Source of the DNA: Candidatus Thioglobus sp.
GTDB lineage: Bacteria > Pseudomonadota > Gammaproteobacteria > PS1 > Pseudothioglobaceae
Length of the DNA: 64,000 nucleotides
Direction: 5' to 3'
Assembly (NCBI GenBank): GCA_028352435.1
Contig: JAOMMB010000001.1
Span: 62,001-126,000, forward strand
The notes below the pieces were generated by a model, which was given only the letters and a program-made list of their open reading frames with translations, was not told the origin of the DNA and did not search any database. Positions 51,155-60,389 of this stretch are shown one piece after another (position 1 is the stretch's first letter; the number at the start of each line of letters is the position of its first letter). The translations under genes and the position numbers were made by a program.

Positions 51155-51493
51155 ATGAAATTTGTAACGGCAATTCTACGACCGCATAAATTAGATGATG
51201 TTAGAGAAGCACTTTCAGAAGTGGGTATATCTGGCATTACAGTCACCGAAGTTAAAGGCTTCGGTCGTCAAAAAGGGCACACCGAGTTATATCGTGGCGC
51301 TGAATATCAAGTTGATTTTTTACCAAAAATTAAATTAGAGTTGGCAATACCTGCATCAAAACTTGATGTTGTTATTGACACCATTAGTAATATTGCCAAT
51401 TCAGGCAAAGTTGGTGATGGCAAAATTTTTGTAACTAATTTAGATAAAGTCGTTCGTATTCGCACAGGCGAAACTGATCAAGACGCACTTTAA
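51155..51493 (+). CDS. glnK: P-II nitrogen regulatory protein (paralog 1)
   Basis: GFGRQKGHTELYRGAEYQVDFLPK T-loop with Tyr, VGDGKIFV. Confidence 0.96.
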   Translation: MKFVTAILRPHKLDDVREALSEVGISGITVTEVKGFGRQKGHTELYRGAEYQVDFLPKIKLELAIPASKLDVVIDTISNIANSGKVGDGKIFVTNLDKVVRIRTGETDQDAL

Positions 51494-51503
51494 GGAGTAA
51501 AAA

Positions 51504-52778
51504 ATGAAAAAATTATTAAGTATGTTGGCTTTAATGCCAATGGTTGTGTTTGCCGAAGGGTTAGATGGTGCAAATACTTCATGGATTCTAACGTCTACAG
51601 CGTTGGTATTATTTATGACTCTGCCAGGTTTAGCATTGTTTTATGGTGGCTTGGTTCGCACCAAGAATATCCTATCGGTGCTTATGCAGTGTTTTGCCAT
51701 TGCAGGTATCGTGTCAATTCTTTGGTTAGTTGCGGGCTATTCAATTGCCTTTACAGATGGCAATGCGTATTTTGGCGACTTGTCTAAATTTATGCTATCA
51801 GGCATTACTGAAGATACGCTAAGTGGTGATATTCCTGAGAGTTTATTTGCATTATTCCAAATGACTTTCGCGATTATTACCCCAGCTCTGATCATTGGTG
51901 GCTTTGCCGAACGCATGAAATTTTCAGCCGTATTGTTGTTTAGTGCAATATGGTTAATTGTTGTTTATGCACCTGTTACTCATTGGGTATGGGGTGGTGG
52001 CTGGTTAGGTGAAATGGGTATTCTTGACTTTGCTGGCGGTATCGTCGTGCATATTACAGCTGGTGTTGCGGCATTGGTAGCAGCTATTGTGCTAGGCCCT
52101 AGAAATGGGTTTCCAAAAAAGCCGATGCCTCCACACAACATGACCATGACTATCACGGGCGCAGCGATGCTTTGGGTTGGCTGGTTTGGTTTTAATGGTG
52201 GCTCAGCACTCGCAGCCAATGGCGATGCAGCCATGGCGATGTTAGTGACGCATATTTCAGCAGCAGCAGGTGCGATGACTTGGATGTTTTATGAGTGGGT
52301 TAAATATGGCAAACCAACCGCATTAGGTGCAGTAACAGGTTTGATTGCAGGCTTAGGTACCATTACACCAGCATCTGGCTTTGTTGGCCCGGCAGGTGGC
52401 TTGGTGATCGGTATTGTGGCAGGTATTGTGTGTTTTAATGCCGTGATTTTGATCAAGCAAAAATGGAAAATTGATGACTCTTTGGATGTTTTTCCTGTTC
52501 ACGGTGTGGGCGGTATTATCGGAACCCTAATGGCGGCTGTTTTTGCATCAGATCAACTGGGTATATTCTCAGGCCAAGGCTTAGCAGAAGGGATGACCAT
52601 CATGTCGCAGCTAAATGTTCAAGTAATTGGTGTTGTGGCAACGATTGTCTATACCGCGATTGCAACTTATATCATTCTAAAAGTGGTTGGCATGATCACT
52701 GGCTTACGAGTGAGCGCCGAAGAAGAGCAACAAGGTTTGGATATTGTTTCTCATGAAGAAAGGGGATATGATTTGTAA
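51504..52778 (+). CDS. amtB: Ammonium transporter (paralog 1)
   Basis: FYGGLVRTKNILSVLMQ, HWVWGGGWLG, WVGWFGFNGGSALAANG; N-terminal signal-like segment. Confidence 0.96.
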   Translation: MKKLLSMLALMPMVVFAEGLDGANTSWILTSTALVLFMTLPGLALFYGGLVRTKNILSVLMQCFAIAGIVSILWLVAGYSIAFTDGNAYFGDLSKFMLSGITEDTLSGDIPESLFALFQMTFAIITPALIIGGFAERMKFSAVLLFSAIWLIVVYAPVTHWVWGGGWLGEMGILDFAGGIVVHITAGVAALVAAIVLGPRNGFPKKPMPPHNMTMTITGAAMLWVGWFGFNGGSALAANGDAAMAMLVTHISAAAGAMTWMFYEWVKYGKPTALGAVTGLIAGLGTITPASGFVGPAGGLVIGIVAGIVCFNAVILIKQKWKIDDSLDVFPVHGVGGIIGTLMAAVFASDQLGIFSGQGLAEGMTIMSQLNVQVIGVVATIVYTAIATYIILKVVGMITGLRVSAEEEQQGLDIVSHEERGYDL

Positions 52779-56840: not shown

Positions 56841-57773
56841 ATGAATATTTCGGATCTTATTGTTGAACAAAAAAGCTTTCTAAAAGATCAACTTGGTGAA
56901 GGTTTAATGCAATTGTCAAAAGCTTGTGATAATTATCTTGCTGAGCAAAATGCTGAGCAATTAAACAAGTTATTGTTGTCTTATATGCAAAGCCATGGCT
57001 ACGCCAATTTGGCTTATGTTTTGGATGAAAATGGCGTGCAGATGAGTGCCAATGTTACCAAGTTAGAAATATCAGATGACTTTCAAGGGCAGAATTTATC
57101 AGATCGACCTTTTTTTAACGTCATTGATGATACACACCCTATTTATATTTCCGATGCTTATATTTCCAGTGCGACATTAAAGCCCTGCATTAGTGTCGTG
57201 CATACTGTTTGTCGAGATGATAAGATTATGGGTATGTTGGTGTTTGACCTTGATTTAGAGAAACTACCACTACCTAAGCAAGATTTTAATCATGAAGATT
57301 GGCGACAAATTAAAGGCGATCCCGAAATACGTTCAAATCTATTTAATCAGCAGCGTATTGAATCAGCCATGGACAAATCCTTGGACACGGTGCATGAGAT
57401 TGCGATAGAGTTATTGGCTGAGTTAGGTGTGTTTCATTTAAAGCTTCATTATCCTGCATCTAGGGCTACGGTTTGGTCTCTGGATGATCCTTATAATTAT
57501 CGTGTTCATGTTTTAGATGAAATTATTAACCCTAATATTCTTCTTTTGTACCCTAAAAAAGATTACCCTGGAAATGCTAAAGTCAGTCAGGATCAAATTA
57601 AAACTGTATTTGAAAAGTTTAAATATCTGCGTTTTATGGATGAAAATCTGTATTTAAAAACAGCCAGTTTAAATATCATGAATGGCTCTATAGGGTTAAA
57701 CTTCTCTTGTGATGGTAGTCATTATTTATCGATAGATGATTTCTTGAATAATTTTGAGGATAAGTTTGGTTAG
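56841..57773 (+). CDS. Soluble Cache/PDC-sensor-like protein of unknown function
   Basis: Cache-like pattern NLSDRPFFNVIDDTHPIYISDAYISS...CISVVHTVCRDDKIMGMLVFDLDLEKL; no signal peptide or TM evident. Confidence 0.7.
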   Translation: MNISDLIVEQKSFLKDQLGEGLMQLSKACDNYLAEQNAEQLNKLLLSYMQSHGYANLAYVLDENGVQMSANVTKLEISDDFQGQNLSDRPFFNVIDDTHPIYISDAYISSATLKPCISVVHTVCRDDKIMGMLVFDLDLEKLPLPKQDFNHEDWRQIKGDPEIRSNLFNQQRIESAMDKSLDTVHEIAIELLAELGVFHLKLHYPASRATVWSLDDPYNYRVHVLDEIINPNILLLYPKKDYPGNAKVSQDQIKTVFEKFKYLRFMDENLYLKTASLNIMNGSIGLNFSCDGSHYLSIDDFLNNFEDKFG

Positions 57774-57792
57774 TATTTTTTTAATATAAATT

Positions 57793-57822
57793 TTACAATT
57801 AAGTATATTTTTTTGATATAAT
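57793..57822 (+). promoter_or_regulatory. Candidate sigma70-type promoter of glnK2-amtB2
   Basis: TTACAA (57793-57798), 18-nt spacer, TATAAT (57817-57822); predicted start ~57829-57830, at the base of hairpin P1. Confidence 0.6.
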
Positions 57823-57829
57823 ATTCATA

Positions 57830-57873
57830 GTTGCTACCCAAAGACGGGAAGTTGACATCAAACATAGACGTTT
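57830..57873 (+). promoter_or_regulatory. ANTAR antitermination element 1 (P1 + P2 hairpins)
   Basis: P1 GUUGCUACCC[AAAGAC]GGGAAGUUGAC (57830-57856); P2 AAAC[ATAGAC]GUUU (57860-57873); both hexaloops A1/G4; P2 3' side lies in terminator 1 5' arm. Confidence 0.8.
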
Positions 57874-57917
57874 ATTTAGGTTCTTTTTAATTAAAGGATT
57901 TAAATAAACGTTTTTTT
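57868..57917 (+). terminator. Leader intrinsic terminator 1
   Basis: ACGTTTATTTA (57868-57878) / TAAATAAACGT (57901-57911), 11 bp perfect, then T-tract. Confidence 0.85.
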
Positions 57918-57921
57918 ATGC

Positions 57922-57962
57922 GCGCTTCATGGAGGAGTGATGCATCAATAGCATTGAAGCTA
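57922..57962 (+). promoter_or_regulatory. ANTAR antitermination element 2 (P1' + P2' hairpins)
   Basis: P1' GCGCUUC[AUGGAG]GAG-u-G-a-UGC (57922-57943, two 1-nt bulges); P2' UAGC[AUUGAA]GCUA (57949-57962); both hexaloops A1/G4; P2' overlaps terminator 2 5' arm. Confidence 0.72.
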
Positions 57963-58012
57963 GTTATTTTTTATTTGTAAGTATTACAAATTGAAATAAC
58001 TAGCTTTTTTTT
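57957..58012 (+). terminator. Leader intrinsic terminator 2
   Basis: AAGCTAGTTATTT (57957-57969) / AAATAACTAGCTT (57994-58006), 13 bp perfect, then T-tract. Confidence 0.88.
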
Positions 58013-58038: not shown

Positions 58039-58383
58039 ATGAAAATAGTTACAGCAATTATTAAGCCATTTAAGCTTGATGAAGTGCGAGAGGCTCTATC
58101 ACAGGTAGGTGTTTCTGGCGTTACGGCAACTGAGGTAAAGGGTTTTGGTCGTCAAAAAGGCCATACAGAGCTTTATAGGGGTGCGGAATACACAGTAGAT
58201 TTTTTACCAAAAGTAAAATTAGAAATTGCAATTTCTGCAGACCAAGTGGATGGTGTGATTGAAGCAATTAGCTTGGCTGCTAAATCTGAGGATGGCAAGA
58301 TAGGTGATGGAAAAATATTTATTACTACGTTAGAGCAAGTGGTTCGTATTCGTACGGGCGAAACTGGTTCAGAAGCGTTATAA
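58039..58383 (+). CDS. glnK: P-II nitrogen regulatory protein (paralog 2)
   Basis: GFGRQKGHTELYRGAEYTVDFLPK, IGDGKIFI; ATG at 58039 downstream of terminator 2. Confidence 0.96.
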   Translation: MKIVTAIIKPFKLDEVREALSQVGVSGVTATEVKGFGRQKGHTELYRGAEYTVDFLPKVKLEIAISADQVDGVIEAISLAAKSEDGKIGDGKIFITTLEQVVRIRTGETGSEAL

Positions 58384-58393
58384 AGGAGACAAC

Positions 58394-59611
58394 ATGGAAA
58401 ATTCAATTTTAGAAATCCAATTTGCAATCGACACTTTTTATTTTTTAATGATGGGTGCGTTGGTTATGTGGATGGCAGCAGGCTTCTCAATGTTAGAAGC
58501 GGGTATGGTTCGTAGTAAAAATACGGCAGAAATTCTGACAAAGAATATTGGCTTGTATGCGATTGCTTGTACAACTTATATGATTTACGGTTATGACGTT
58601 ATGTATGGCGGCGGTGTTATGCTAGAAGGAATTGAAGTGGTTGCTAAAGATGCTACTTATGCAGCACCTTCTGACTTCTTCTTCCAAGTGGTCTTCGTTG
58701 CAACAGCAATGAGTATTGTTTCGGGTGCGGTAGCTGAGCGTATGAAGTTGTTTGCATTCTTTGCTTTTGCGGTTATTTTCACGGGTGTTATTTATCCAAT
58801 GGAAGGCGCATGGACATGGAACGGTGCGTCAGTATTTGGCTTATACACTTTAGGTGACTTAGGGTTTTCTGACTTTGCTGGCTCAGGTATTGTGCATATG
58901 GCTGGCGCAGCAGCAGCGCTTGCAGGTGTTCTTGTATTGGGCGCTCGTAAGGGTAAATACAATAAAGACGGCTCCTCAAATGCGATCCCAGGTGCAAATA
59001 TGCCATTAGCAACTTTAGGTACGTTTATCCTATGGTTGGGTTGGTTTGGCTTTAATGGTGGTTCAGTATTAGCAATGGCAAGTAAAGAAAGTGCTAACGC
59101 AGTAGCAATGGTATTTTTAAATACTAATGCTGCGGCTGCTGGTGGTGTTATTGCAGCATTAATTCTGGTTAAATTAGTATGGGGTAAGGCGGATCTTACT
59201 ATGGCTCTAAATGGTGCACTAGCAGGTCTTGTAGCAATTACAGCTGGACCTGATACGCCAACTGCTTTAGAGGCAACTCTTATTGGTGCTGTTGGTGGTA
59301 TTATCGTTGTCTATTCTATTACAACGCTTGATAGAGTATTTAAGATTGATGATCCAGTAGGTGCTATTTCAGTTCATGGTGTTGTTGGCTTGTGGGGCTT
59401 ATTGGCTGTACCATTAACAAACTCAGGTGTTTCATTCACAGGCCAGTTGGCAGGCGCAGGAACGATCTTTGTATGGGTATTCGGAACATCATTGGTTTTA
59501 TGGTTAATCCTAAAAGCAATCATGGGTATTAGAATCTCAGAAGAAGAAGAATATTCTGGAGCAGATCTTTCTGAATGTGGTTTGGAGGCGTATCCAGAGT
59601 TTACAAAATAA
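58394..59611 (+). CDS. amtB: Ammonium transporter (paralog 2, divergent from paralog 1)
   Basis: GFSMLEAGMVRSKNTAEILTKN, WLGWFGFNGGSVLAMA, ISVHGVVGLWG. Confidence 0.96.
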   Translation: MENSILEIQFAIDTFYFLMMGALVMWMAAGFSMLEAGMVRSKNTAEILTKNIGLYAIACTTYMIYGYDVMYGGGVMLEGIEVVAKDATYAAPSDFFFQVVFVATAMSIVSGAVAERMKLFAFFAFAVIFTGVIYPMEGAWTWNGASVFGLYTLGDLGFSDFAGSGIVHMAGAAAALAGVLVLGARKGKYNKDGSSNAIPGANMPLATLGTFILWLGWFGFNGGSVLAMASKESANAVAMVFLNTNAAAAGGVIAALILVKLVWGKADLTMALNGALAGLVAITAGPDTPTALEATLIGAVGGIIVVYSITTLDRVFKIDDPVGAISVHGVVGLWGLLAVPLTNSGVSFTGQLAGAGTIFVWVFGTSLVLWLILKAIMGIRISEEEEYSGADLSECGLEAYPEFTK

Positions 59612-59640
59612 CCTCCCGTAAAAATTTAATCAATTTTTCA

Positions 59641-59663
59641 CCTCGCTTATAGCGAGGTTTTTT
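59641..59663 (+). terminator. Intrinsic terminator after amtB2
   Basis: CCTCGCT-TAT-AGCGAGG followed by TTTTTT. Confidence 0.9.
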
Positions 59664-59804: not shown

Positions 59805-60389
59805 ATGAATACAGCACTAAAAATCATCTTAGTTGATGAAAACTCAGGACGCTCTGCAATGTTACGCAGGGCTCTTCAAGACAAAGGACATGAGGTGATC
59901 TGTCGAATGAGTGGTAGTGCTCAGCTTCAAGACAGTAACGAGATGACACATGCTGATGTGGTGATTGTTAATGCCGATATTCCAGATGAAGAAGTATTTG
60001 CTAATTTATCTGATGTTAATAGAACCAAGCCTAAGCCTATTGTTATGTTTACTGAAGAGTCTAGTTCTGAAATGGCAAGCTCTGCTATTAAATCAGGTGT
60101 TAATGCATATATTGTAGATGGACTTGAAGAGAAGCGTGTTCAGCCTATTATTGATGTTGCTATGGCAAGATTTAGAGAGTTTCAAGCGCTAAAGGATGAG
60201 CTAGATGCCACTCGCAACCAATTATCTGAGCGCAAAGCAGTTGAAAGAGCCAAAGGTTTATTAATGCAGCACAAAAAAATTAATGAAGATGAGGCTTACC
60301 AATCGCTGAGAAAAATGGCCATGGATAAAAATAAGCGTATTGTTGATGTAGCAGAGAGTGTAATTAATGCTTTTGAGCTTTTAGAATAA
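59805..60389 (+). CDS. REC-ANTAR antitermination regulator (NasT/AmiR-like)
   Basis: REC-like N terminus; C-terminal ANTAR RNA-binding domain QLSERKAVERAKGLLMQHKKINEDEAYQSLRKMAMDKNKRIVDVAESVI. Confidence 0.93.
   Translation: MNTALKIILVDENSGRSAMLRRALQDKGHEVICRMSGSAQLQDSNEMTHADVVIVNADIPDEEVFANLSDVNRTKPKPIVMFTEESSSEMASSAIKSGVNAYIVDGLEEKRVQPIIDVAMARFREFQALKDELDATRNQLSERKAVERAKGLLMQHKKINEDEAYQSLRKMAMDKNKRIVDVAESVINAFELLE

Follow-up and report, generated by a model that had tools for sequence, protein, structure and literature searches.

A probable NasT-type antiterminator with a pseudo-receiver and its likely glnK-amtB leader target in Candidatus Thioglobus and its relatives

We examined a 64,000-nucleotide stretch of a genome of Candidatus Thioglobus, a marine sulfur oxidizer (hereafter the window), around a gene encoding a REC-ANTAR protein at 59805-60389. 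This gene follows glnK (58042-58383), which encodes a PII protein (PF00543, E 4e-30), and amtB (58394-59611), which encodes an ammonium transporter of the marine subtype (TIGR03644). A terminator-like hairpin read from the sequence (59640-59663) separates amtB from the regulator gene, and a gene for a Cache-domain protein, recognized by a weak dCache_1 match, lies upstream of the glnK leader (56841-57773). These genes, the hairpin, and the promoter and leader elements described below are all on the forward strand. No AmiC-type partner gene was found beside the regulator gene, whose neighbors are amtB, glnK, the Cache-domain gene, and the genes for DNA ligase, TatC and TatB. The glnK-amtB pair adjoins the regulator gene in most genomes of the family, by which we mean Thioglobaceae/SUP05 as assigned by the named relatives of the regulator (80-96% identity in Candidatus Thioglobus, SUP05 bacteria, symbionts of Bathymodiolus and vesicomyid clams, and Pseudothioglobus). 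In some relatives, the gap from amtB to the regulator gene holds TorF-like porin genes. The window contains a further glnK-amtB pair (51155-52778), which has no ANTAR leader.

The product of 56841-57773 had been put forward as a candidate partner of the regulator, but we rejected it as a general partner because the Cache protein is absent from many complete relatives in which the regulator is still present. It has no recognized output domain and precedes the glnK leader in Thioglobus-type genomes only. At one locus of a distant relative (L052), a distantly similar Cache-like gene precedes nasT.

The regulator has 194 residues, with a receiver domain (PF00072, E 5e-9) and an ANTAR domain (PF03861, E 5e-20) identified by Pfam; no other ANTAR protein was found in the assembly (928 kb, 67% complete). 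Its AlphaFold model (mean pLDDT 87.3) has strands ending at the canonical receiver positions: strand 1 (residues 6-11) at D11, strand 3 (52-56) at N56, strand 4 (79-83) at T83, and strand 5 (101-105) at D105. On the C-terminal side, the ANTAR domain comes after a coiled-coil helix, the model having a long helix (109-157) followed by two more. The top fold matches in the PDB were EutV and AmiR, and the model is closer to their extended conformation than to compact Rv1626; it is a model of the monomer, in which active and inactive states are indistinguishable.

An earlier note, made from the DNA alone, had read an asparagine at the phospho-acceptor position and proposed alignment with structures of the EutV/AmiR type as a check. 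The reading was confirmed: N56 (AAT codon, 59970-59972) occupies the column of EutV Asp54 (6wsh), the residue that is phosphorylated in EutV (PMC8934654), it ends strand 3 of the model, and it is invariant in 53/53 distinct family proteins, as are D11 and D58. Position 12 is more variable (E 39, K 11, G 2, V 1), and position 83 is threonine in 43 proteins and alanine in 10. The segment YIVDG, noted before as a NasT-like replacement for the usual lysine region, likewise stood up, with aspartate at the switch-lysine position in 52 of the 53 family proteins (asparagine in the other) and in 35/46 NasT-like proteins from other gammaproteobacterial families. The receiver is thus a pseudo-receiver in which both the acceptor aspartate and the switch lysine are gone. 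The protein is strongly conserved, receiver included, with a mean column identity of 85%. Pfam scans that covered tatC and tatB downstream and, upstream, most genes over about 16 kb found no histidine kinase. With both residues missing, an asparagine that never varies in the family, and no kinase seen nearby, the suggestion of phosphorylation-independent control is well supported.

The 46 NasT-like proteins served as an outgroup for the history of the acceptor residue, although one of them (L245) falls inside the clade of the window's regulator. The acceptor is D in 35, N in 3, G in 3, S in 2, and K, C and V in one each. Judged from these alignments, loss of the switch lysine characterizes the NasT-like group as a whole, within which the aspartate has been lost repeatedly. 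Aspartate-less receivers (ALRs) are a described class that is enriched with ANTAR outputs, and RitR carries the same residue at Asn53 (PMC4395418), so the asparagine alone is not surprising.

Neither does the asparagine seem to point to a partner of the NasS or AmiC type, which had been offered as one possible means of control. That no NasS- or AmiC-like gene lies in the window was borne out beside the regulator gene, and the NasS model (PF13379) had no match anywhere in the 67%-complete genome. Among 60 family genomes it gave weak matches only, in 5/60, one of them just at the cut-off, so NasS-like proteins are missing from this genome and essentially from the family. In the outgroup, NasTs accompanied by a signal-less NasS-like receptor or a cytosolic NrtC-type fusion kept the aspartate in 25/26 cases, whereas those without a cytosolic NasS-like receptor kept it in 9/19 and lost it in 10/19 (Fisher p 2.4e-4 on raw counts; L231 was borderline, and no class could be assigned to locus L227). 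Loss is therefore concentrated where NasS is absent, which argues against taking the asparagine as a sign of such a partner. When the tree is considered, 1-3 well-supported independent contrasts remain, so the tie between aspartate retention and NasS is suggestive but not established given relatedness, and the argument drawn from it is suggestive in the same measure. At three loci of other gammaproteobacteria, an NrtC-type fusion of a NasS-like domain with a nitrate ABC ATPase is encoded near NasT, and the NasT there has the aspartate.

The earlier note overlooked the likely RNA target next door, the leader of glnK-amtB. The 220 nt upstream of glnK fold with a z-score of -7.8 against shuffled sequences and contain two strong intrinsic terminators. 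A predicted sigma-70-like promoter of glnK-amtB (TTTACA ... TATAAT, 57792-57822, read from sequence) has a TATAAT-like -10 element at the same place in relatives. The leader that follows it (57832-58012, about 2 kb upstream of the regulator gene) holds a tandem pair of ANTAR dual-hairpin motifs, and each motif overlaps an intrinsic terminator. In module 1, the first hairpin, P1a (57832-57853), presents the hexaloop AAAGAC (A1, G4) in CCC-AAAGAC-GGG, and the second, P2a (57860-57873), reads AAAC-AUAGAC-GUUU (A1, G4) and has its 3' arm in common with terminator T1 (57867-57917, -19.7 kcal/mol, with a U-run). In module 2, P1b (57919-57944) has a CUUC stem and the loop AUGGA(G) and is the weakest of the four hairpins, P2b (57949-57962) reads UAGC-AUUGAA-GCUA (A1, G4), and its 3' arm is common with terminator T2 (57956-58012, -21.9 kcal/mol, with a U-run). 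In PMC3369931 and PMC8934654, ANTAR RNAs are defined by two hexaloop hairpins with A1 and G4, the second overlapping a terminator. Module 1 agrees with this definition fully; in module 2, P2b and T2 agree fully and P1b in part. Only some relatives have a clean hexaloop at P1b; the hairpin is non-canonical in many genomes, including this one.

Comparison with relatives supported these structures. Since MAFFT split the P1 stem when run on raw leaders, linkers were padded to equal length before pairs were counted. Across 40 distinct leaders, G4 of both module-1 loops was invariant (40/40), and 92.7% of P1 stem cells were paired, with 73 double-change cells vs 29 after shuffling. The covariation score of this stem was 0.512, vs 0.216 after shuffling and no more than 0.235 in slid versions, and the P2b stem varies among relatives as AGC/GCU, GGU/GCC and GGC/GCC. 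An Rfam scan of the window at gathering thresholds found only a tRNA.

We then looked for further leaders with two covariance models. The first, R1, was trained on glnK leaders alone and matched nothing but the glnK leader in the window's own genome, where at 67% completeness this is the one target leader. In relatives, many second matches with the same tandem layout precede nirB, which is followed by nasA in at least one of them. Of 30 nirB loci, R1 matched 26/26 of the closely related type 1 and 0/4 divergent ones, and paired terminators can be read in the type-1 leaders; nirB was not found in the 67%-complete genome of the window. The second model, R2, was retrained on both the glnK and nirB leader classes and matched 52/60 family genomes. 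On the window it scored the glnK leader, a copy included in its training set, at 54.5 bits, with the next best match at 12.1. R2 added leaders before genes for a NarK-type transporter and porins and before serC-serA and serB, where terminators were read by eye. Three genomes have R2 matches before atpB that probably arose by chance and have no U-run terminator. Vesicomyosocius has lost amtB or has it in decayed form, and both modules of the glnK leader are gone with their terminators; the nirB leader is nonetheless intact and the regulator is kept at 86-89% identity, as expected if the job of the protein is to act on these leaders. Counting against such a role are two draft relatives in which the leader is present but the regulator was not detected, along with the non-canonical P1b and the one target leader in the genome of the window.

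These results make it probable that the regulator is a NasT-type antiterminator with a dead receiver that acts on the glnK-amtB leader and, in relatives, serves as a general regulator of nitrogen acquisition. From the architecture, and from the ANTAR antitermination mechanism worked out in EutV, as described in PMC3369931 and PMC8934654, we infer that it binds the leader RNA and antiterminates. The ANTAR domains of an active dimer would bind the hairpin loops of the glnK-amtB leader, P1 and then P2 by analogy with EutV, and so block the terminator, as P2 folding in each module would consume the 5' arm of the next terminator. With T1 and T2 both prevented, polymerase would continue into the two genes. 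The reach of the protein in relatives would extend to nirB-nasA, narK and a few further genes, which would make it a general nitrogen-acquisition regulator in a family without NtrC (an NtrC model exceeded its cut-off in 0/60 family genomes and 1/14 control genomes). The most likely reading is that an antiterminator of the NasT type has been repurposed for general nitrogen regulation. Activation cannot use canonical aspartate phosphorylation, given Asn56, and the input would instead be non-covalent or set by abundance, through either a small ligand or a nitrogen-status partner. GlnK reports nitrogen status in the cell, and this role, the synteny, and the lack of NtrC make it the first candidate, tentative as that choice is.

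One specific form of the input left open by this reading is direct control by PII, in which GlnK binds the pseudo-receiver, holds the antiterminator inactive at nitrogen sufficiency, and frees it at limitation, as a PII analogue of AmiC-AmiR. The adjacency of glnK-amtB and the regulator gene in most family genomes is consistent with this, as are the absence of NtrC, at which the PII pathway usually ends, and the retention of glnK and the regulator close together in clam symbionts without amtB. However, this support is one of neighborhood, the usual partner of GlnK is AmtB, and the second glnK-amtB pair of the window carries no such leader, so we regard direct PII control as possible but doubtful. 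The receiver might instead be a dimerization scaffold only, with the output of a constitutive antiterminator set by protein abundance. A dead receiver and a model that fits extended EutV/AmiR better than compact Rv1626 would both be explained, but the conservation of the receiver exceeds what a scaffold would appear to need and a monomer model is blind to the activity state, which leaves this rather unlikely. That a constitutive antiterminator would not regulate is also counted against the preferred reading of a nitrogen regulator.

NasT normally reports nitrate via NasS (PMC3795266), and nirB-nasA stands under the same leader in many family genomes, so that a receptor of unrecognized type could have replaced NasS and kept the system under nitrate control. 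Ammonium uptake would be an odd target for nitrate, however, and three near-complete genomes in which nirB was not detected keep the protein and the glnK leader; we consider this explanation unlikely. Least probable by far is phosphorylation of D58 by an orphan kinase. D58 is as invariant in the family as N56 is, but it sits two residues beyond the end of strand 3, the switch lysine is missing, and relatives that keep Asp56 usually have D or E at 58 as well (DMESP, DLDSP). We therefore rejected D58 as a displaced acceptor, and neither it nor an adjacent cognate kinase, the two findings that would have overturned the earlier proposal, came to light in the model and the neighboring genes scanned.

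The regulator resembles several described systems in part. It shares the REC-ANTAR layout and the missing switch lysine with NasT of NasS-NasT (Paracoccus, PMC3795266; Bradyrhizobium, PMC6759348) and, in relatives of the window genome, a predicted target leader before nirB-nasA, but here NasS was not found, the acceptor is asparagine, and the main conserved target is glnK-amtB. With EutV of Enterococcus (PDB 6wsh/6ww6) it has in common the fold, the ANTAR region, and the logic of dual hexaloops with several terminators; unlike EutV, which EutW activates by phosphorylating Asp54, it has asparagine and no cognate kinase in the neighboring genes scanned. AmiR (PDB 1qo0) also has an aspartate-less receiver, an ANTAR output and a matching fold, although identity in the structural alignment is 22% and no AmiC-like partner was seen beside the gene. 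As in ALRs such as RitR, asparagine replaces the acceptor and the first acidic residue is kept, but a basic residue persists at the lysine position in most ALRs (70%), where the regulator has aspartate (PMC4395418).

SUP05 and Thioglobus bacteria abound in oxygen minimum zones and as symbionts of animals. In the literature searched, we found no paper joining SUP05 and ANTAR, and no regulator of SUP05/Thioglobus nitrogen uptake turned up. Ramesh et al. (2012) predicted ANTAR RNAs upstream of genes for P-II and ammonium transporters, which are of the same RNA class and precede the same gene class as the leader here. Ruthia, Vesicomyosocius, glnK and amtB go unmentioned in the main text of that paper (PMC3369931), but its supplementary tables may already cover these genomes. 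New here, as a variation on a known type of system, is that a dead receiver occurs with a conserved regulon of several operons while NasS and NtrC are both missing. The dead switch of the regulator and its likely leader target suggest that a bacterial family of the ocean and of symbioses controls nitrogen uptake by transcription antitermination. The Thioglobaceae (SUP05, Pseudothioglobus and bivalve symbionts) may conceivably have gone further and replaced NtrBC with a single phosphorylation-free pseudo-receiver antiterminator, probably acting via PII, that reads nitrogen status and, by way of leaders with tandem hexaloops and terminators, governs the uptake of ammonium, the assimilation of nitrate and, in some lineages, genes for porins and serine synthesis, a proposal we make only tentatively. 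If one antiterminator governs the regulon through an RNA signature that can be read in the sequence, the regulation of nitrogen uptake would become predictable from sequence and open to testing in vitro, and a pseudo-receiver conserved family-wide without a NasS partner is a natural case for studying how such receivers switch.

Some of the additional leaders merit individual mention. ANTAR-type leaders with two terminators precede a NarK-family transporter gene at three loci. Among the four porin-like loci, two porin-like genes carry their own ANTAR leader. Four loci in Pseudothioglobus-like genomes have ANTAR-type leaders before serC-serA and serB, which suggests that serine synthesis may have joined the nitrogen regulon there. 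At L157, nirB is cut to about 95 codons directly upstream of nasA and the ANTAR leader is intact, and at L304 (also L158) an ANTAR-type leader at 310-489 of that locus precedes an open reading frame for a 60-residue membrane protein. No carriage of the protein or the leader was found among the viral contigs searched, within the DNA matches listed.
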